The position numbers and the translations under genes were made by a program. Shown piece after piece: positions 16,109 to 24,533 of a stretch of 64,000 nt of DNA (positions are counted from its first letter, which is position 1; every line of letters begins with the position of its first letter). The DNA comes from Chitinophagaceae bacterium (lineage in GTDB: Bacteria > Bacteroidota > Bacteroidia > Chitinophagales > Chitinophagaceae), in assembly GCA_023957155.1 (NCBI GenBank), contig JAMLHK010000003.1, positions 342,238 through 406,237 on the forward strand. Reading direction: 5' to 3'. The notes under the pieces were generated by a model. That model was not told the origin of the DNA and did not search any database. It saw only the letters and a list, made by a program, of their open reading frames with translations.

Positions 16109-16519
16109 TTATTTTAGGTTTAACCAGTCCGTATTTAAATTTAAATCATCGTGTTTCTTTGAATCAGCCCAAAGTTCATCATCTGTCAAGTTAGTTTCAA
16201 TTAATTCAACCGGCATTCCGCCATCGTTTATAATAGCCACTTTATATCCGGAAATTGGCTCATAAGGGCCTAAGATAACATCTTGTCCTTGTATAGCACT
16301 CATCAGATTTTCAACTTTCAGCGCAACATGCGGATTGTTTTTTATTACAGGATGTAACGGACTGTTTTCTTCAAAACGATGAAACTGAAACCTAAACTTT
16401 CCATTATTATCCGAAGTGTACATTCTGAAACTTTCGCTATAACGCTCATTAGGCCTTATGTTCTGTATCGGAATTCCTACATGATGAAAACTATATTTGA
16501 AATCAATTTTATGTGCCAA
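16109..16519 (-). CDS. VOC/glyoxalase-like domain protein
   Basis: A 136-residue protein with the outline of a vicinal-oxygen-chelate fold: an opening beta strand HHVGIPIQN, a central HVALKVENL strand-helix and a final strand PVELIETN whose Glu is often a metal ligand. The function is not predictable. The only in-frame start before the first domain strand is a TTG codon at 16519, directly after an in-frame TGA, so this gene uses TTG or has lost its start. It is followed downstream by no close partner and lies just after the NAD(P)-binding gene at 16544 on the same strand. Confidence 0.6.
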   Translation of the reverse strand: MAHKIDFKYSFHHVGIPIQNIRPNERYSESFRMYTSDNNGKFRFQFHRFEENSPLHPVIKNNPHVALKVENLMSAIQGQDVILGPYEPISGYKVAIINDGGMPVELIETNLTDDELWADSKKHDDLNLNTDWLNLK

Positions 16520-16543
16520 CGGTCAAATTTTGATTTATTGCTT

Positions 16544-17176
16544 TTATTTGTTTGACAATGAAACATATTTGCCCAGCTCAGTTGGATTTTCAGCCTGCTT
16601 TACCAGGAAATCGGCAACATCGGAACGATTAATGCTGCCGATGTTGATGCCTTCAAAAAGTTGTGTTTCTGCTCTGTATTTCTCGGTCAATGGCTTGTCT
16701 TTCAGGATTCCGGGTCTGACGATTTCCCATTTTATTCCTGATCTTGTAATAATTTCCTCCATTTTAGTTTTGTCGGCATACACCTCTTTAAGGAATAGTT
16801 TGAAAAATATTTTCATTAAAAAAGAGTTGTAAGCACCGCTTTCTCCTGCTCCAAAACCTGTTACTACTATGAATGGGACCCGGGTATTTGTTCCTTGTTG
16901 AACTACTGTCAAAAGTTTGGCAAAGTCTGAATAGAGCGTAGTGGGTTTCATAGCTTTTCCTGTTCCTACAGCTACAATTACAGCATCTGCATTTTCAATA
17001 GATCTTTTCAGGTCGGTTTCATTTGTTGCACTTCCTTTTATCATTATTAAATTAGGGCTGTTCGGCAATGAAATTTCTGACCTGGAAAGCGTTGTTACTT
17101 TATGATTTCGTTGCAAAGCTCTTTTTACGGTTTCGAGTCCAACACCTGCCGAGGCACCTATGATGGTAATGTTCAT
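16544..17176 (-). CDS. NAD(P)H-binding protein, NmrA-like SDR
   Basis: A 210-residue Rossmann-fold protein starting at the ATG at 17176, where the dinucleotide motif IGASAGVGLETV begins within a few residues of the start. A longer frame upstream to 17293 adds 39 residues that do not look like part of the fold. Further landmarks are DAVIVAVGTG near residue 66 and WEIVRPGILKD near 155, typical of NAD(P)H-binding NmrA-type proteins. Its substrate is unknown. It lies 25 bases upstream of the VOC-like gene on the same strand and may be co-transcribed with it. Confidence 0.8.
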   Translation of the reverse strand: MNITIIGASAGVGLETVKRALQRNHKVTTLSRSEISLPNSPNLIMIKGSATNETDLKRSIENADAVIVAVGTGKAMKPTTLYSDFAKLLTVVQQGTNTRVPFIVVTGFGAGESGAYNSFLMKIFFKLFLKEVYADKTKMEEIITRSGIKWEIVRPGILKDKPLTEKYRAETQLFEGINIGSINRSDVADFLVKQAENPTELGKYVSLSNK

Positions 17177-17275
17177 TTTATTGATCCAATTATTGCCGGT
17201 AAAGGTATTGATACCGTATCTAAAATATACTACATTTGAAAAAATACCACTATCTTTTAGGATACCACAAGTTAA

Positions 17276-18472
17276 TTGTAATCTCTCCCGCACATAACAC
17301 AGGTTTTCACAGAAAATATTCCAAAAAAATCAGCGGCGATCTGCGAAATCTGCGGGAAATAAAAAACAATGACTGAAAACGAGATATCGTATATCATCAA
17401 TGGATTGTAATCTCTCCCGCAGATAACACAGATTTTCGCAGATAATATTTCAAAAAATCAGCGGGGGTCTGCGAAATCTGCGGGAAATAAAAAACAATGA
17501 CTGAAAACAAGATATCGTATATCATCAATGGATTGTAATCTCTCCCGCAGATAACACAGATTTTCACAGATAATATTGCAAAAAATCAGCGGGGGTCTGC
17601 GAAATCTGCGGGAAATAAAAAAAGCAATGACTGAAAACGAGATATCATATATCATCAGAGGAGCTATATTCGATGTGTATAACAACCTCGGACCCGGTCT
17701 CCTGGAATCGGCTTATGAAGCTGCGCTGCAGTACGAATTGCTGAAGAGAGGAATGAAAGTCGAATCACAAGTTCCTTTACCTCTTGTTTATGATCAGATC
17801 AAATTAGAAATAGGTTATCGAATTGATCTGTTAGTGGATAACAAAGTAATTATTGAAATTAAATCTGTCGAAAATTTATCGGAAGTTCATCATAAGCAGG
17901 TAATTACTTATCTAAAATTATCTGGCAAAAAATTGGGAATACTTGTAAATTTTAATTGTACACAAATTGACAGGTCTATCTTTAGAAAGGTCAATGGATT
18001 GTAATCCCTCCCGCAGATAACACAGGTTTTTACAGAAAATATTCCAAAAAAATCAGCGGCGATCTGCGAAATCAGCGGGAAATAAAAAACAATGACTGAA
18101 AACAAGATATTGTATATGATCAATGGATTGTAATCCCCCGCAGATAACGCAGATATCCGCAGAAAATATTCCAAAAAAATCAGCGGAGGTCTGCAAAATC
18201 AGCGGGAAATAAAAAATAATGACTGAAAACAAGATATCCTATATAATCAATGGATTATAATCCCTCCCGCAGATAACGCAGATTTTCGCAGAATAATATT
18301 GCAAAAAATCTGCGGAGGTCTGCGAAATCAGCAGGAAATAAAAAACAATGACTGAAAACAAGATATCGTATATCATCAATGGATTGTAATCTCTCCCGCA
18401 GATAACACAGATTTTTACAGAAAATATTAAAAAAATCAGCGGGAGTCTGCGAGATCTGCGGGAAATAAAAAG
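17276..18472 (+). repeat. Minisatellite of seven ~128-bp units; one unit holds the intact GxxExxY gene
   Basis: Units begin with TTGTAATC(T/C)CTCCCGC at 17276, 17405, 17533, 17999, 18128, 18255 (variant TTATAATC) and 18384. Each unit is a long imperfect hairpin (CCCGCAGAT near its start pairs with ATCTGCGGG near its end) followed by a 13-codon mini-ORF MTENKISYIINGL. That mini-ORF equals the first ten codons of the GxxExxY gene joined to its last three. The unit starting at 17533 contains the full gene instead and is 466 bases long. So the short units are internal-deletion derivatives of hairpin-plus-gene; a TCA direct repeat sits at both deletion edges. Two further units lie inverted at 23.75-24.03 kb. 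Confidence 0.9.
17627..18004 (+). CDS. GxxExxY protein
   Basis: A 125-residue protein of the GxxExxY family (TIGR04256), widespread and of unknown function; the fold is thought to be nuclease-like. The defining GPGLLESAYE motif lies near residue 22, the family N-terminus TENEISYII is present, and the C-terminal half has the conserved-looking strand pattern IDLLVDNKVIIEIKSVENLSE with the acidic and lysine residues expected of a PD-(D/E)XK-like site. I chose the ATG at 17627 because it matches the family start and the copies in the repeat units; an earlier frame start lies in the hairpin repeat. It stands in the middle of a tandem repeat derived from itself. Confidence 0.9.
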   Translation: MTENEISYIIRGAIFDVYNNLGPGLLESAYEAALQYELLKRGMKVESQVPLPLVYDQIKLEIGYRIDLLVDNKVIIEIKSVENLSEVHHKQVITYLKLSGKKLGILVNFNCTQIDRSIFRKVNGL

Positions 18473-18546
18473 AAGATGATAATCGGAATTACAAGCCTGA
18501 TCGTGTTGGTTGCCTTGGGAGTATTACTTTTTTAATCTCTAACATC
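18384..18546 (+). repeat. Left arm of long inverted repeat bracketing the encapsulin island
   Basis: The last minisatellite unit plus the 19-codon mini-ORF and the bases AATCTCTAACATC recur in inverted orientation at 23675-23840 with only a few mismatches. The innermost identical bases are 18546 and 23675. The arms enclose about 5.1 kb. Confidence 0.88.
18476..18535 (+). CDS. Hydrophobic 19-residue mini-ORF, copy 1
   Basis: ATG at 18476 to TAA at 18533-18535 encodes a 19-residue, almost wholly hydrophobic peptide (begins MIIGITSL, ends GVLLF) that would form one membrane helix. An identical sequence lies inverted at 23686-23745. No ribosome-binding site is obvious, which is normal in this phylum. 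It may be translated or may just be part of the repeat. Confidence 0.35.
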   Translation: MIIGITSLIVLVALGVLLF

Positions 18547-18586
18547 AATTGTTCTATACTTCCTCCTGTTTACCCGGAACACGCTT

Positions 18587-19101
18587 TTACCGTATAGAGA
18601 AGGAGTAAACTTCCTCATAATTCCTTTGAATGCAATAATTGACCGTTTTGCGGGTATTATTGAAAACTACTGACCACTGTGTTGGCCATTCTTCGTCATT
18701 CAACCTCGCACTTTTCAGCAGCTCCATTCCTTCCTGTTCCGTTAGCGTATTTTTTGTTCTTCCCAGAGTGGTAATGAGTGTGTCATAGCGGTCGTAGCCC
18801 TCTCACCTCTCACCTCTCACCTATCCTTCCATTCGCCGGGCATCAGCAGGAAATTAGTCGCACACCGTGCACCATCGAGCACGCTCATTTCATTATTGAT
18901 ATATTCCACGATCGCGGTATTTCCCAGGGTATCGGCCAACTGAAAATGGTAATTGCTGCCCGCAGAAGCGTTCATATCGTATTGCTTCAAAAGATGGACA
19001 GCTTCCGGCACGGTAGCAGCTTTGTCCAGCACCATCCGAAAGGAAAGGGAACATGGTCTGAATTTTGTATAAGGCATTTTTTCTCTCCCACTTCGTTCCA
19101 T
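18587..19101 (-). pseudogene. Linear amide C-N hydrolase / acyltransferase-like C-terminal remnant
   Basis: Two adjacent minus-strand frames together spell the C-terminal half of a choloylglycine-hydrolase/penicillin-acylase-like (linear amide C-N hydrolase) protein. The first part (to the stop at 18817) has FRMVLDKAATVPEAV, ASAGSNYHFQ and NFLLMPGEW; the second (to TAA at 18587) continues with YDRYDTLITTLGRTKN and QWSVVFNN. They are separated by three 7-bp tandem repeats that bring in a stop and a frame change. The catalytic N-terminal Cys part is missing. The gene is dead; it ends close to the left inverted-repeat arm, which may have truncated the locus. Confidence 0.8.
18801..18821. repeat. 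Three 7-bp tandem repeats TCTCACC inside the pseudogene
   Basis: TCTCACC occurs three times head to tail and accounts for the frame break in the amide-hydrolase remnant. Changing copy number cannot restore the frame, because each unit itself brings a TGA. Confidence 0.85.
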
Positions 19102-19115
19102 CTCCTCTCCTCATA

Positions 19116-21062
19116 CTACCGCACCAATCCCTTCAATACAGAAATCAACCGGTCTACATCTTCACAGGTATTGTAAAATGCCAGTGAAGGGCGCACCGTG
19201 GTCTCCACACCCATTCTCCGCAAAATGGGCTGAGCGCAATGGTGACCGGTACGCACGGCAATGCCTTCGCGGTTCAACGCTTTTCCTACATCATCATTCG
19301 AATAGCCTTTCAATGTAAAGGATAACACACTTGCTTTATGTGCCGCAGTGCCAATCAGTCGTACACCCGGCACTTGTGTAAGATGATAGGTAGCGTATTC
19401 AAGCAATGCATGTTCATACGCATTGATATTAGCCATACCCAGCTGTGTTACATAATCTATTGCCGCGCCAAGTCCTACCGCATCTGCAATATTACCGGTA
19501 CCTGCTTCAAAGCGGTTGGGCGCTTTGTGATATTGTATCTTTTCAAAAGTTACATCCTGTATCATATTACCCCCACCCTGCCAGGGTTCCGTTTCGTTCA
19601 GCAACGCTTCTTTACCATATACCACGCCAATGCCTGTTGGACCAAACACTTTATGTCCTGAAAATACAAACCAATCCGCATCAAGTGCCTGTACATTTAC
19701 CGGCATGTGGGAAACAGACTGTGCACCATCAACCAAAACTTTGGCGCCGGCGGCATGTGCCATAGCCACTATTTGTTCAGCAGGCGTTACCGTACCCAGC
19801 GCGTTAGAAACCTGCGTAAAAGCAACCAGTTTCGTATTGGAGCTTAACAACTTCGCATATTCACTTAATAAGATCTGCCCGTCATCATCTACAGGGATTA
19901 CTTTTAATGTCAACCCTTTTTTATCAGCGAGTCTTTTCCACGGTACGATATTGGCATGGTGTTCCAAATGGCTCACAATAATTTCATCACCGGCTTTCAG
20001 GTATTGATCTCCCCAGCTTTGGGCAACCAGGTTAATCGCTTCCGTAGCGCCACGTACAAAAATGATCTCGTTAGGTGATTTCGCCCCAAGAAATTGCTGC
20101 ACTTTTTTTCGCGCTGCTTCATACGCATCCGTTGCCCTTGCTGCCAGCTCATGCGCGGCACGATGGATATTTGAGTTTTCCTGCCGGTAAAAATAACTCA
20201 GCCTGTCAATTACCAATTGAGGCTTCTGGGTAGTAGCTGCATTGTCTAACCACACCAGTGATTTACCATTTACCTTCTCATTAAGAATAGGAAAGTCTCT
20301 TTTTATTTTATACGCATCAAAGCCTGATGTAAAACCACCCAACTGCCCATTTTGTACCGGCTGCTCCCGGCTTTGTAAAAAGTAAAAGGAAGGGGTATGT
20401 ACATCAGCCGTTGGAGATAACGGCGAAATCCCGGACGGAGCATCACTTATACTGATCAATTTAAGAATGGATTCAACATCCGACCAATAAGCCTGCTCGC
20501 CGGCATAAGGCAATGCAAATATATCTTTTGAGCCTGCCGGCTTATCAATATTGGAGTCCGGGAAGCTGGTTACCGGTTCTTTAATGCTGAAATTATCCTG
20601 CTGGTGCACATACGAAGGAGATGCGCCGCTACCTGCTACAGATGCCGGCACACCACCATTCAATGTAGATTGATCAGATTTTGTTTGCTCATATCCCGGC
20701 GGCAGATAATTGTTCCCTTCTCCCGCACCCGGCAAAGCCGTATTTGTATTGCCGTAGCTGGCTATCGAAGAAGAGGCACCCAGTCCCGTTGCAGAAGGCG
20801 GCGCAGCTATTCCGTTGAAAGGATCAGATACCGCAAAGGGAGCCGGACCACCGGACTGAACCCATGCCTCATCAACCGGAACACCCACCCCCGGAACAAC
20901 GCCTTCCCCCGTAATGGATTTGGCAAACGCCGTTGCACGCGGATGTTCGTAAGGATCGAATGATACTTCCTTTGGCGCCTCTTCCGGCAAAGCGTTGAAA
21001 AGCTGGTTAGCCAATGCCTGCAATGCTTCAACCGGAGGAAGATTATTTGTATTTGTACTCAT
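19116..21062 (-). CDS. Cysteine desulfurase cargo of family 2A encapsulin
   Basis: A SufS-like PLP enzyme that takes sulfur from cysteine, 648 residues. The catalytic domain begins near residue 250 and is complete: SGHKVFGPTG near 469 carries the PLP lysine and RTGHHCAQP near 609 the catalytic Cys. The first ~245 residues are low-complexity, rich in Gly, Pro, Ser and Ala, and match the disordered cargo-loading extension known from family 2A encapsulin systems (Synechococcus SrpI). I chose the ATG at 21062 (MSTNTNNLP); an upstream start at 21107 lies deep inside the shell gene. The first 20 bases overlap the shell gene in another frame, so translation is probably coupled. Its likely role is sulfur storage inside the shell. 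Confidence 0.93.
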   Translation of the reverse strand: MSTNTNNLPPVEALQALANQLFNALPEEAPKEVSFDPYEHPRATAFAKSITGEGVVPGVGVPVDEAWVQSGGPAPFAVSDPFNGIAAPPSATGLGASSSIASYGNTNTALPGAGEGNNYLPPGYEQTKSDQSTLNGGVPASVAGSGASPSYVHQQDNFSIKEPVTSFPDSNIDKPAGSKDIFALPYAGEQAYWSDVESILKLISISDAPSGISPLSPTADVHTPSFYFLQSREQPVQNGQLGGFTSGFDAYKIKRDFPILNEKVNGKSLVWLDNAATTQKPQLVIDRLSYFYRQENSNIHRAAHELAARATDAYEAARKKVQQFLGAKSPNEIIFVRGATEAINLVAQSWGDQYLKAGDEIIVSHLEHHANIVPWKRLADKKGLTLKVIPVDDDGQILLSEYAKLLSSNTKLVAFTQVSNALGTVTPAEQIVAMAHAAGAKVLVDGAQSVSHMPVNVQALDADWFVFSGHKVFGPTGIGVVYGKEALLNETEPWQGGGNMIQDVTFEKIQYHKAPNRFEAGTGNIADAVGLGAAIDYVTQLGMANINAYEHALLEYATYHLTQVPGVRLIGTAAHKASVLSFTLKGYSNDDVGKALNREGIAVRTGHHCAQPILRRMGVETTVRPSLAFYNTCEDVDRLISVLKGLVR

Positions 21063-21969
21063 GATAATTACCGATTTCAACATCATCCAATACCGCAATG
21101 GCATCATCTACCAATACCGCTAAAGAGCAATACAGCGATACGAGATAAGATGCGATCGCTTTTTCATTGATGCCCATAAAACGGACGGAGAGACCCGGAG
21201 TTTGTTCGCCCTGCAATCCCGGCTGGAACAATCCTACCACACCCTGCTTCGCTTCACCGGTACGTAATAAAATGATCTTTGATTTTCCTTTTACTATGGG
21301 TAATTTATCCGAAGGGATCAGGGGAATACCTCTCCAGGTAAGGAATTGTGAGCCAAACAAAGAGATGGTGGGAGGAGGAACACCCCGACGGGTACATTCC
21401 CTGCCAAATGCAGCAACAGCCAATGGATGCAGCAAGAAGAAGCCCGGCTCCTTCCACACTTTGGCAATGAGGTCATCAAGGTCATCAGGCGTAGGCGCAC
21501 CGGTACGTGTTTTAATGCGCTGGCTGTCTGCCACACTATGTAATAAACCATAGCCTGCATTATTGATCAGCTCACTTTCCTGGCGTTCTTTGATGGTTTC
21601 TATAGCCAGCCGGAGCTGCTCCGATATCTGGTTATACGGCTTGCTGTACAGGTCGGACACCCGGGTGTGCACATCTACAATGGTTTGCACGGCAGCAAGA
21701 TTATATTCCCTGGGATTTTCAATATAATCCACAAAGGTTTGCGGCAGCACTTTTTCATCCCGCGAAGAGCAATCCACTTCAATCCGCGTAGCATTTTTTA
21801 CCTTGTTCAAACGGTATACTCCCGATTCTACAGGTATCCAGTTTAAAAGACGGGTGAGCCACCTGGGAGTAATAGTTACCATTTGCGGAACTGTGCGGGT
21901 GGCAATAGCCAACTGCCGGGCGGCGACATCGCCAAGAGCGGTTTGTTGCTGGGTTTTAGTTTCAGCCAT
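21043..21969 (-). CDS. Family 2A encapsulin nanocompartment shell protein (SrpI-like)
   Basis: A 308-residue HK97-fold shell protein. Recognisable stretches of the family are TPRWLTRLLNWIPVESG near residue 37, the central KVWKEPGFFLLHPLAVAAFGRE and GIPLIPSDKLP, and the C-terminal FMGINEKAIASYLVSLYCS. Family 2A shells of this type form icosahedral compartments that package a cysteine desulfurase, and the cargo gene follows with a 20-base overlap. No third gene (for example a serine acetyltransferase or rhodanese) is beside it. The upstream region to the SAM riboswitch is shared with the divergent cystathionine gene. The family has been described in cyanobacteria and others. Confidence 0.93.
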   Translation of the reverse strand: MAETKTQQQTALGDVAARQLAIATRTVPQMVTITPRWLTRLLNWIPVESGVYRLNKVKNATRIEVDCSSRDEKVLPQTFVDYIENPREYNLAAVQTIVDVHTRVSDLYSKPYNQISEQLRLAIETIKERQESELINNAGYGLLHSVADSQRIKTRTGAPTPDDLDDLIAKVWKEPGFFLLHPLAVAAFGRECTRRGVPPPTISLFGSQFLTWRGIPLIPSDKLPIVKGKSKIILLRTGEAKQGVVGLFQPGLQGEQTPGLSVRFMGINEKAIASYLVSLYCSLAVLVDDAIAVLDDVEIGNYHEYKYK

Positions 21970-22149
21970 TGTATTTGATTTACGTTTTATTTAAGTGTAA
22001 ATATATCTTAAAACAAATCCAACTTTTTAAGATGAGATGTTTTACGCTTATAAAGATAATTATAAGCTATATCCGGAAAAAAATAAATACACAAATTCAC
22101 CAACAATTATATTATCAATTTGGGCATACAGCATGACAACATAAAAAAA

Positions 22150-22182
22150 TTTGGTTATAAAAATATATTCACTATACCTTTG
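22150..22182 (+). promoter_or_regulatory. Promoter of the SAM-riboswitch transcript
   Basis: TTTG (22150-22153), a 21-base spacer and TACCTTTG (22175-22182) fit the -33/-7 consensus; transcription would start about 22189, just before the riboswitch. Confidence 0.65.
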
Positions 22183-22217
22183 CGGCAGTTCTTTATTACT
22201 GCACAGGATGCAGCATA

Positions 22218-22331
22218 CTTATCAAGAAAGGTGGAGGGTAATGGCCCTGCGAAGCCTTGACAACCTCCTTTTAGCTGTAATGTTAAAAGGGATGGTGTCA
22301 ATTCCATCACGCTGATAGCGTGGAAGATAAG
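22218..22331 (+). promoter_or_regulatory. SAM-I riboswitch (S box)
   Basis: The aptamer begins with CTTATCAAGAAAGGTGGAGGG and closes with GATAAG, which pairs with the first CTTATC. The conserved core GCGAAGCC..GACAACCTCC, the P3 segment AAAGGGATGGTGTCAATTCC and a P4 stem CACGCTGATAGCGTG are all there. It precedes a hairpin terminator and the cystathionine gene. SAM binding should favour termination. Confidence 0.95.
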
Positions 22332-22372
22332 CCAGATTTACAGCTCAGAAATAACGTGTACAATTATATTTG

Positions 22373-22406
22373 AAGCTCGTCTGATTTATCGGACGAGCTT
22401 TTTTAT
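22373..22406 (+). terminator. Riboswitch expression-platform terminator
   Basis: Stem AAGCTCGTC (22373-22381) / GACGAGCTT (22392-22400) with a 10-base loop followed by TTTTATT, 65 bases before the start codon. Upstream segments AGCTGTAA and TTTACAGCT (near 22273 and 22337) could pair as part of the alternative structure. Confidence 0.85.
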
Positions 22407-22470
22407 TGCTCTCCGTTGATCTTTTTTGGTAAGGAATGTCCCGTATTTTTCACCGTTAAAACTAAAAAAG

Positions 22471-23661
22471 ATGAACAGCATTGCAACACAGCTCATTCAC
22501 AGCATTCCCACAGATCCCCTGACCGGCGCGGTTTCCGTGCCTATTTATCAAACCAGCACCTTTGTACAGGAGGCGCCGGGTGTAAACAAAGGATATGATT
22601 ATTCCCGCAGTGGAAATCCCACCAGGGCAGCTTTGGAAAGCCTGATCGCTACTATAGAAAAAGGAGCCGCAGGCGCGGCTTTTGCAAGCGGTTTGTCCGC
22701 AATTGACGCGGTGCTGAAATTACTTGAAACCGGCGATGAAATACTGGCGGTTGATGATATTTACGGCGGCGCATTCCGCATATTTACACAGGTGTATCAA
22801 AAATTCGGTATTAAAGTGCGCTATGTGGATACCACCATTGCTGAAAATGTATTGAATGCCATCACGCCCAAAACAAAACTTATCTGGCTCGAAACTCCCA
22901 CCAATCCTACACTTAAAGTATCTGATATTGAAGCCATCGCCAAGATCGCAAAGAGCCGTCAATGTTTACTCTGCGTAGATAATACTTTCGCTTCACCCGC
23001 ACTGCAACTTCCCCTTACACTGGGAGCAGACATAGTGATACATTCCGCTACCAAGTATCTCGGCGGGCACAGCGACCTCATTGCCGGGCTGGTTGTTACC
23101 AGAGAACAAGAGCTGGGGGATAAAATAAAATTCATTCAGAATGCAAGTGGCGCCATCCTTTCACCATTCGACAGCTGGCTGGTGATCCGCGGTATTGAAA
23201 CACTGCACCTCCGGGTTAAACAGCATTGCGCCAATGCACAGGCAGTAGCTGAGTTTTTACAATCTCATCCCGCTGTAAATAAAGTGTACTATCCCGGGTT
23301 GAAAAGTCACACCAATCACACCGTTGCGGCCCGGCAGGCAAAAGGTTTCGGCGGAGTTGTTTCCTTTACCTTAAAAGACGATACCGTTGATGCAGCCAAT
23401 GCTTTTATAACCTCCACAACCTATTTTAAGCTGGCGGAAAGCCTCGGCGGCGTAAAAAGCTTACTCTGTCATCCTGCACAAATGACACACAAATCCATCC
23501 CCGAAGCAATAAGAAGAGCGTCCGGGGTTGCAGACAGCCTGATACGATTAAGTGTAGGACTGGAAGATGCCGGAGACCTGATCAATGATCTGGAAAATGC
23601 TTTCGCAAAGATCAAAAGCCGGGCAGGTAAAAAAGAGCAGCTTGCAGAAGCATTCGTGTAG
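22471..23661 (+). CDS. Cystathionine gamma-synthase/lyase-family PLP enzyme
   Basis: A 396-residue trans-sulfuration enzyme of the Cys/Met PLP family. Landmarks are [20 protein letters not shown] near residue 48, the Asp-binding CVDNTFASP and [11 protein letters not shown] near 192-202, whose Lys binds PLP. Synthase, lyase and O-acylhomoserine sulfhydrylase cannot be told apart here, though control by a SAM riboswitch points to methionine synthesis. I chose the ATG at 22471 because it starts directly before the family core; an earlier start at 22426 falls in the leader. The divergent neighbours handle sulfur as well. Confidence 0.9.
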
Positions 23662-23674
23662 GATTGCTTCTAAA

Positions 23675-24032
23675 GATGTTAGAGATTAAAAAAGTAATAC
23701 TCCCAAGGCAACCAACACGATCAGGCTTGTAATTCCGATTATCATCTTCTTTTTATTTCCCGCAGATCTCGCAGACTCCCGCTGATTTTTTTAATATTTT
23801 CTGTGAAAATCTGTGTTATCTGCGGGAGAGATTACAATCCATTGATTATATAGGATATCTTGTTTTCAGTCATTATTTTTTATTTCCCGCAGATCTCGCA
23901 GACTCCCGCTGATTTTTTTAATATTTTCTGCGAAAATCTGTGTTATCTGCGGGGGGATTACAATCCATTGATTATATAGGATATCTTGTTTTCAGTCATT
24001 GTTTTTTATTTCCCGCTGATTTTTTTTAATAC
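23675..24032 (-). repeat. Right inverted-repeat arm: mini-ORF plus two and a partial minisatellite units
   Basis: Read on the minus strand this is the same hairpin plus 13-codon mini-ORF unit as at 17.3-18.5 kb, two full units and a truncated third (ending at the CCCGCTGATT near 24020), then the 19-codon mini-ORF and its flank. About the first 195 bases are near-identical to the left arm. Confidence 0.88.
23686..23745 (-). CDS. Hydrophobic 19-residue mini-ORF, copy 2
   Basis: Identical in sequence to the plus-strand copy at 18476-18535, from ATG at 23745 to TAA at 23686, and predicted to be a single membrane helix. It faces the cystathionine gene. Its identity to copy 1 shows either recent duplication or gene conversion, not selection by itself. 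Confidence 0.35.
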   Translation of the reverse strand: MIIGITSLIVLVALGVLLF

Positions 24033-24143
24033 CGGTATAGCATGATTCCGCTTACCGGTTTGAATACGCCCTGCTTTTGCAATTAGCATCCGTAAATAAA
24101 ATATTTTAAAAAAAACTGAAATAAAAAAAGGTTTTATCTTAAT

Positions 24144-24164
24144 AGTCTACTATTTTTGTAGGAT
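24144..24164. promoter_or_regulatory. Palindromic operator-like site 1
   Basis: AGTCTACTATTTTTGTAGGAT, an imperfect inverted repeat of AGTCTAC and GTAGACT type. The contained TATTTTTG matches a -7 box, though no good -33 box is seen. Related sites lie at 24435 and 31121. Confidence 0.5.
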
Positions 24165-24227
24165 AAACAATTCTATTGATTACAAAAGTAATTGGGCTTA
24201 CTTTACTTTGTATACTTTGTAGAGTTG

Positions 24228-24392
24228 CTACAAACGGCTTTTGCTTTGCCGCAGGTAACGAGTTAAAATTTCTCCGGCTTCAATAAACCACCACCATTTA
24301 TTCTGCCGTACATATCGAAATGATCCGAACGGGTATTCAAACGCATTGATTTTCTGAAGCCCCTGCCAGGTTAAGAATATTATGGTGGTCAT
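24228..24392 (-). CDS. Possible 54-residue Trp-rich protein or gene remnant
   Basis: The minus-strand frame from ATG 24392 to TAG 24228 encodes a Trp- and Arg-rich peptide with KWWWFIEAGE near residue 32, and the frame stays open further upstream to about 24430. I do not recognise a family. Its amino-acid composition looks protein-like, but it lies in a promoter-rich gap and over an inverted repeat. It could be a remnant of a longer gene or chance. Confidence 0.3.
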   Translation of the reverse strand: MTTIIFLTWQGLQKINAFEYPFGSFRYVRQNKWWWFIEAGEILTRYLRQSKSRL

Positions 24393-24422
24393 GTATTTGC
24401 GACCTGTTACCAGGGGCTTCAG
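24354..24422. repeat. 12-bp inverted repeat with 45-base loop
   Basis: CTGAAGCCCCTG (24354-24365) pairs perfectly with CAGGGGCTTCAG (24411-24422), followed by an A tract, not T. It is therefore not an obvious terminator in either direction; it sits directly upstream of the operator-like site at 24435. Confidence 0.7.
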
Positions 24423-24434
24423 GAAAAAAACAAA

Positions 24435-24455
24435 AGTCTATAAAAATAGTAGACT
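24435..24455. promoter_or_regulatory. Palindromic operator-like site 2
   Basis: AGTCTATAAAAATAGTAGACT, an inverted repeat of AGTCTA and TAGACT with one changed base, lying 5 bases upstream of the -33 box of the TonB-receptor operon. Confidence 0.6.
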
Positions 24456-24460
24456 AAAAA

Positions 24461-24492
24461 TTTGGAACTGATTAGTGAACACTATACTTTTG
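24461..24492 (+). promoter_or_regulatory. Promoter of the TonB-receptor operon
   Basis: TTTG (24461-24464), spacer 20 bases, TACTTTTG (24485-24492). This is a full match to the Bacteroidota -33/-7 consensus. The predicted transcript starts near 24499 and has a 370-base leader. Confidence 0.75.
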
Positions 24493-24533
24493 CAGCACCT
24501 AATTAATCACCACCATTAGTTAGTTAATTTATA

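Follow-up and report, generated by a model that had tools for sequence, protein, structure and literature searches.

The array in the window

The window (the whole 64,000-nt stretch of DNA analyzed, from a Chitinophagaceae bacterium) contains an array of seven hairpins at 17286-18463, in which one intact gene of the GxxExxY type and five short open reading frames (mini-ORFs) are interspersed. Tandem repeats of about 128 bp flank the gene on both sides, at 17275-17657 and 17991-18471 (TRF). The features, including a second array without a gene, are as follows, with the basis of each in brackets.

17286..17357, plus strand: hairpin 1 (fold z -2.1, 6/200 shuffles as good; repeat family)
17369..17410, plus strand: mini-ORF MTENEISYIINGL, an internally deleted GxxExxY gene (sequence comparison with the intact gene)
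17415..17485, plus strand: hairpin 2 (inverted arms 17415-17443/17457-17485; fold z -6.3)
17497..17538, plus strand: mini-ORF MTENKISYIINGL (sequence comparison with the intact gene)
17543..17613, plus strand: hairpin 3, immediately 5' of the intact gene (fold z -4.1)
17627..18004, plus strand: intact GxxExxY gene, 125 aa, predicted PD-(D/E)XK fold (TIGR04256, PF13366, alignment, AF2, fold matches)
18009..18080, plus strand: hairpin 4 (fold z -2.5, 2/200 shuffles as good)
18092..18133, plus strand: mini-ORF MTENKILYMINGL (sequence comparison with the intact gene)
18137..18206, plus strand: hairpin 5 (fold z -6.6)
18219..18260, plus strand: mini-ORF MTENKISYIINGL (sequence comparison with the intact gene)
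18265..18336, plus strand: hairpin 6 (fold z -6.9)
18348..18389, plus strand: mini-ORF MTENKISYIINGL (sequence comparison with the intact gene)
18394..18463, plus strand: hairpin 7, the last of the array, without a mini-ORF behind it (fold z -5.7)
18464..18546, plus strand: 3' flank common to the second array (BLAST within the window; sequences)
23675..24023, minus strand: second array, gene-less, with two hairpins, two mini-ORFs and the common 3' flank (95% identity to 18195-18546)

Five of the seven hairpins fold better than all 200 of their dinucleotide shuffles (z -4.1 to -6.9), hairpins 1 and 4 being less clear (z -2.1 and -2.5, with 6/200 and 2/200 shuffles equally stable). Each mini-ORF (42 bp) consists of codons 1-10 of the GxxExxY gene fused to its last three codons and the stop. 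This derivation, put forward in an earlier note on the same DNA, stands: 336 bp are lost at a 3-nt (TCA) microhomology, and the junction is identical in every copy, the exact reading MTENKISYIINGL being present in three of the five mini-ORFs of the main array. The tandem units of about 128 bp, the hairpins and the deletion are likewise as the note described them; its unit counts and the position of the gene are not. It had six of seven units ending in the open frame and the seventh carrying the intact gene. Mini-ORFs in fact trail five of the seven hairpins (1, 2, 4, 5, and 6, with starts at 17369, 17497, 18092, 18219, and 18348), the gene sits after hairpin 3, and hairpin 7 is followed by other sequence with no gene remnant.

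The second array is an inverted copy of 18195-18546 (BLAST within the window), which takes in about 80 bp past the last hairpin of the main array; its two mini-ORFs run from 23999 and 23873 on the minus strand. A whole-genome search for the unit, proposed in the note, was run with the array as query and found two places only at E ≤ 0.001, the main array and this inverted partial copy, in a 4.6-Mb assembly that is 88% complete. The second array starts about 14 bp past the stop codon of a methionine/cystathionine lyase-like gene (22426-23661, named by eye), and a SAM riboswitch (RF00162, 82.6 bits) lies upstream of that gene at 22216-22333.

The GxxExxY protein

The window protein matches TIGR04256 at E 8e-42 (142.3 bits, cut-off 35) and PF13366 at E 2e-41 (141.6 bits, cut-off 22). 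In the profile search, PF13366 (PDDEXK_3) was the sole match of the window gene at E ≤ 0.001, with none to S23p/IVP (PF05635). The putative catalytic residues E27, D67, E77, and K79 are invariant in an alignment of 64 relatives, and the AF2 model (pLDDT 95.9) gives fold matches to PD-(D/E)XK nucleases; no solved structure related by sequence was found. On the evidence of model and alignment, the protein is a putative nuclease, with a predicted PD-(D/E)XK fold and conserved E, D, and ExK.

GxxExxY genes are present in at least 67 of the 98 genomes searched around that of the window. Carriage by phages or plasmids was considered and rejected, one query protein matching 0/50,697 phage and 8/72,556 plasmid records; PHROGs gave weak matches only. 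At two loci (L031 and L035), GxxExxY genes of the GNGFQE type lie, as judged by eye, between hsdS-like and hsdR-like genes.

Inverted-repeat arms and their boxes

Apart from the gene in the window, the genome has four PF13366 matches, which are distributed over three loci and include one frameshifted copy; box-like repeats are seen by eye around each of these loci, L004 being the least clear. A first set of 113 loci was taken from this genome, its relatives and named public genomes; the gene was located in 104 (nine had none by motif) and 101 were testable (three more had short flanks). A fresh set of 100 places was drawn from the top of the matches listed, most of the tail being excluded together with three places interrupted by in-frame stops and a single one lying at the edge of a contig. 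It gave 90 loci with a gene (10 without) and 86 testable ones (four more short-flanked). For each locus, the 300 nt on one side of the gene were searched for their best inverted match in the 300 nt on the other, and this match was compared with the 99% line of dinucleotide shuffles.

This test was passed by 69 of the 101 first-set loci, vs. 1/83 flank pairs displaced by 1 kb and 3/156 pairs a gene's length apart that were taken from other parts of these loci. In the fresh set, 56/86 passed against its own shuffle line, the displaced control belonging to the first set only. Over both sets 125/187 pass and 62/187 fail, with 4/239 for the controls (first set only). In 31 of the 101 first-set loci no partner matched better than the downstream flank of the locus itself, and in 60 this flank ranked in the top 5%. 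In the GNGFQE group the arms read GTCTGAA..GATT, and 19/34 loci of the fresh set lie over the shuffle line. Outside Bacteroidetes sensu stricto, 16 of 19 testable loci pass (taxa as annotated in public records), mostly on MAG contigs that are possibly misbinned; Ignavibacteria or Melioribacter account for three of the 16, and the others include Planctomycetota, Verrucomicrobia, Lentisphaerae, Cyanobacteria, Proteobacteria, and a Methanosarcinales MAG. Judged by these sequence comparisons, GxxExxY genes are mostly framed, in several phyla, by inverted repeats whose arms are made of tandem boxes. The boxed cassette is widespread and apparently not previously described: a literature search for repeats around GxxExxY, a weak test of absence with preprints and most subscription journals outside its coverage, found none.

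Each arm is built of two or three boxes in tandem, which often read CRCRRAK and are spaced 8-10 nt apart; in the flanks of GxxExxY genes, five-letter words repeat every 8-10 nt. Over 104 loci, CRCRRAK is concentrated beside the gene and oriented, with 240 forward and 115 reverse boxes upstream and 101 forward and 252 reverse downstream. At least three CRCRRAK boxes are present at 85/104 first-set loci vs. 3/83 displaced controls, and at only 37/90 loci of the fresh set, where subfamilies with other boxes are common.

Box type varies along with the protein. The last box base (T or G) changes four times on the protein tree of 121 loci, compared with 29 times on average when the labels are shuffled (100 rounds); for two further features of the boxes the numbers of changes are 26 vs. 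41 and 22 vs. 36 (observed vs. shuffled). Protein and box distances correlate over 85 loci (Mantel r 0.45, with 0/2000 permutations as high). Gene and arms go together in these sequences, with box type following the protein tree. Such a correlation would be expected of any units inherited together, and is by itself no proof of binding.

Residue 18 of the protein (Tyr or His) was considered as a code for the last box base and rejected as such; it is kept as a clade-level trend only. Among first-set loci, T accompanied Tyr in 17/18 and G accompanied His in 64/65. The prediction, fixed before the fresh set was seen, gave T for Tyr in 4/4, and for His 22 G, 9 T, and one tie (p 0.014). The residue changes twice on the tree, where one independent pair agrees and one does not differ. 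An end of the element supplying the stop codon of the upstream gene was also rejected (4/50 vs. a background of 283/4780, p 0.54).

Occupied, empty and gutted sites

Orthologous sites were compared within one genus, and gain and loss are unpolarised (G numbers denote genomes, L numbers loci). Site 1 lies between histidine-kinase-like and response-regulator-like genes. It is empty in G002 and G007, and also in G006, where at 65% identity the region may be a paralogue; it is occupied in G008 by a hairpin without a gene and in the window genome by hairpins and a frameshifted gene. Site 2 carries the cassette in G007, G003, and G001, and lacks it, with both flanks aligned, in G000, G011, and G010; another five genomes can be aligned at one flank only, and G008 at neither. 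Site 3 is empty in G000, G008, and G001. The gene is present there in G004, G009, and G005, and, with an in-frame stop seen by eye, in G003; it is gutted with the arms kept in G006, which has gene start and end without the middle, and in G002, which has the end only. G007 aligns on one side only, and G010 and G011 do not align. A search for an empty counterpart of the window array gave none: relatives retain the flank on the sufS-like side, and the opposite flank is unaligned in the seven loci compared. No target-site duplication or exact element end was found, the empty sites being too diverged to place ends.

A second, independent tandem pair occurs at L270, where an intact gene lies downstream of a gutted copy that has lost 281 bp at a TTTCA repeat, with breakpoints unlike those of the window. 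Internal deletions of the MITE type, with the ends kept, are known from the window, L270, and G006 at the third site. Gutted relics look rare in such comparisons. When loci were scanned for a further stretch of gene start (30 nt) or gene end (21 nt) away from the gene, the window alone was a clear case in one set of 104 loci, and in another of 90 only L270 showed both ends. The earlier note had seen in the array an autonomous and non-autonomous pair. The L270 pair and the deleted genes at an orthologous site agree with this; relics are rare, and neither movement nor target-site duplication nor high copy number was seen. Its further idea, that a cellular gene gave rise to something like a MITE, probably reverses the true order, because the gene usually lies between such arms.

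Among 636 gene-spanning pair alignments, 423 stop near the gene despite longer flanks and 36 run far into the flank. At 72% identity or more, 90 pairs are limited to the element, and only 14 of them extend at least 20 nt past the gene (e.g., L258/L262 and L195/L215). For the hairpin region of L005, the best match beyond the locus has E 0.005, in a search that diverged copies could escape. Several near-identical hairpins stand beside the GxxExxY gene of L287 (G001), at a site that is empty in three relatives. In G006, L301 and L309 are two contigs with the same match and sequence, representing either a duplication or assembly redundancy.

IVP genes

Genes of the IVP family, which encode a four-helix protein unrelated to GxxExxY, have the same plan of boxed arms with a 7-nt period, five-letter words in their flanks recurring at 7 and 14 nt. 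The gene was located in 29/30 loci of a first set and in 32/60 of a second, which is biased by a narrow motif; 27 and 31 loci were tested, and 15/27 and 23/31 passed the arm test, vs. 0/51 controls elsewhere (first IVP set). Some IVP loci among L117-L146 share similar neighborhoods across genera, as judged by eye, e.g., before the start of a thiolase-like gene (L120, L131, L132, L134, and L138) or after argC-like genes (L118, L119, and L140).

The two families tend to occur in the same genomes. Among the matches listed for 98 genomes, 65 have both, 16 neither, two GxxExxY only and 15 IVP only (Fisher p 3e-8, ignoring kinship). The 16 genomes without either family include some of 5-8 Mb.

Origin and mode of action

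The locus is best explained, at a probability of roughly 0.6, as a compact cassette resembling a mobile element, which would consist of a putative nuclease gene and boxed inverted-repeat arms, move rarely and shed non-autonomous derivatives. In the window, the cassette would have become a tandem array, across which a single internal deletion (336 bp, TCA/TCA) spread, so that gutted units now accompany the one intact gene. The nuclease may act on its own arms as DNA, in the form of a cruciform, hairpin, or duplex, and breaks or nicks at the arms could lead, via host repair, to gain and loss of units, internal deletion and occasional relocation. Copies are few per genome and differ from each other, so that replicative transposition is not seen. 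Weighing against this reading are also the 62/187 loci that fail the arm test, the top rank of a locus's own partner in no more than 31/101, the mere 37/90 fresh loci with three or more CRCRRAK boxes, the 14/90 element-limited pairs that reach 20 nt or more past the gene and the restriction of presence/absence data to one genus.

An alternative, which is unlikely, is a host or defense nuclease gene whose boxes or hairpins are operators kept by selection for self-regulation, losses and duplications being ordinary genome decay. Orthologous GxxExxY copies look mostly to be under purifying selection, with dN/dS of 0.03-0.17, well below 1, in 7/8 computable pairs (dS exceeds 1 in 4/8); this fits a kept host function as well as it fits the cassette model. 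The low number of copies per genome and the position of some copies, by eye, between hsdS-like and hsdR-like genes also speak for a host gene. Operators of a host gene would, however, leave unexplained that the arms flank the gene on both sides, that IVP genes, an unrelated family, follow this plan too at a spacing of their own, and that hairpin-only and gutted forms with arms exist; nor did PADLOC match either of the two GxxExxY proteins tried, which counts only against known defense families.

It is quite improbable that the element works at the RNA level like the intervening sequences (IVS) of 23S rRNA, the arms pairing in a transcript that is processed, e.g., by RNase III. Some cassettes do lie between genes resembling operon partners, and repeats, heptamers, and an ORF deletion are described for the Coxiella IVS (PMC4990558). 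Pairing in RNA should however favor G.U over A.C mismatches on the gene strand, and the gene-spanning GxxExxY arms have 123 and 143, respectively (p 0.24), the local hairpins 36 and 40. For IVP, the first set leans to G.U (24 vs. 13, p 0.10) and the second to A.C (8 vs. 18, p 0.08), giving 32 vs. 31 overall, and action of IVP arms as RNA was rejected on this ground. The lack of a G.U bias favors a role at the DNA level, and the array has no Rfam match at E ≤ 1. A plain minisatellite, in which slippage at hairpins multiplied a passenger gene and its deleted copy with nothing mobile or nuclease-driven, fits the tandem arrays, the microhomology at deletions and the lack of dispersed copies of the window array in its own assembly, but is very improbable, since it leaves unexplained the box arms around the gene at unrelated loci in several phyla and the empty orthologous sites.

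Beyond the locus, the cassette reading can tentatively be extended, at somewhat under even odds, to a wider proposal, in which boxed inverted-repeat cassettes form a general class, present in bacteria and perhaps also in archaea. Its members would carry single small genes of unrelated folds (PD-(D/E)XK in GxxExxY, four-helix in IVP), with an arm period particular to each protein (8-10 and 7 nt, respectively). These proteins would recognize the DNA of their own arms and maintain or spread the cassette by a mechanism unlike that of known transposases, 23S rRNA intervening sequences being the one branch noticed so far. If so, the joint presence of GxxExxY and IVP in genomes would suggest that they share a host factor. 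The boxed arms give the common GxxExxY protein a likely substrate, which makes its function directly testable, and the cassette model would explain one kind of intergenic repeat and connect it with the 23S rRNA intervening sequences, a long-standing puzzle.

Comparison with known systems

REP/BIME elements are short palindromic intergenic repeats tied to one adjacent nuclease-like gene, RAYT, which is a Y1 tyrosine transposase. The window array resembles them in having such repeats and one neighboring nuclease-like gene; it differs in that the gene is of the PD-(D/E)XK type, and not a Y1 transposase, and that copies per genome are few, REPs usually exceeding 100 copies per genome (PMC2817692). 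Pairs of MITEs and autonomous elements are alike in their internally deleted derivatives, which keep both ends and stand next to an intact copy, and unlike in that the cassette has neither a target-site duplication, as far as found, nor a dispersed high copy number. The BrickBuilt MITE of Porphyromonas gingivalis is, by the summary of its report, a minisatellite with small inverted-repeat ends (PMC4596501). It is likewise intergenic and from Bacteroidota, and differs in its 23-nt repeat, its 19 copies in one genome and the absence of a gene from what that summary names.

The closest in plan to the GxxExxY cassette are the 23S rRNA intervening sequences with an S23p/IVP ORF. The cassette differs from these in its PD-(D/E)XK protein, its 8-10 nt spacing, its sites between protein genes and its lack of an RNA pairing signal; the array lies outside any 23S rRNA gene, as 16500-24500 has no rRNA match at E ≤ 1. 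In Coxiella (PMC4990558), the intervening sequence has terminal inverted repeats, tandem heptamers before the ORF and, in one strain, a deletion of the ORF. Common to both systems are a single small ORF enclosed by terminal inverted repeats, tandem repeats of short length and derivatives in which the ORF is deleted.
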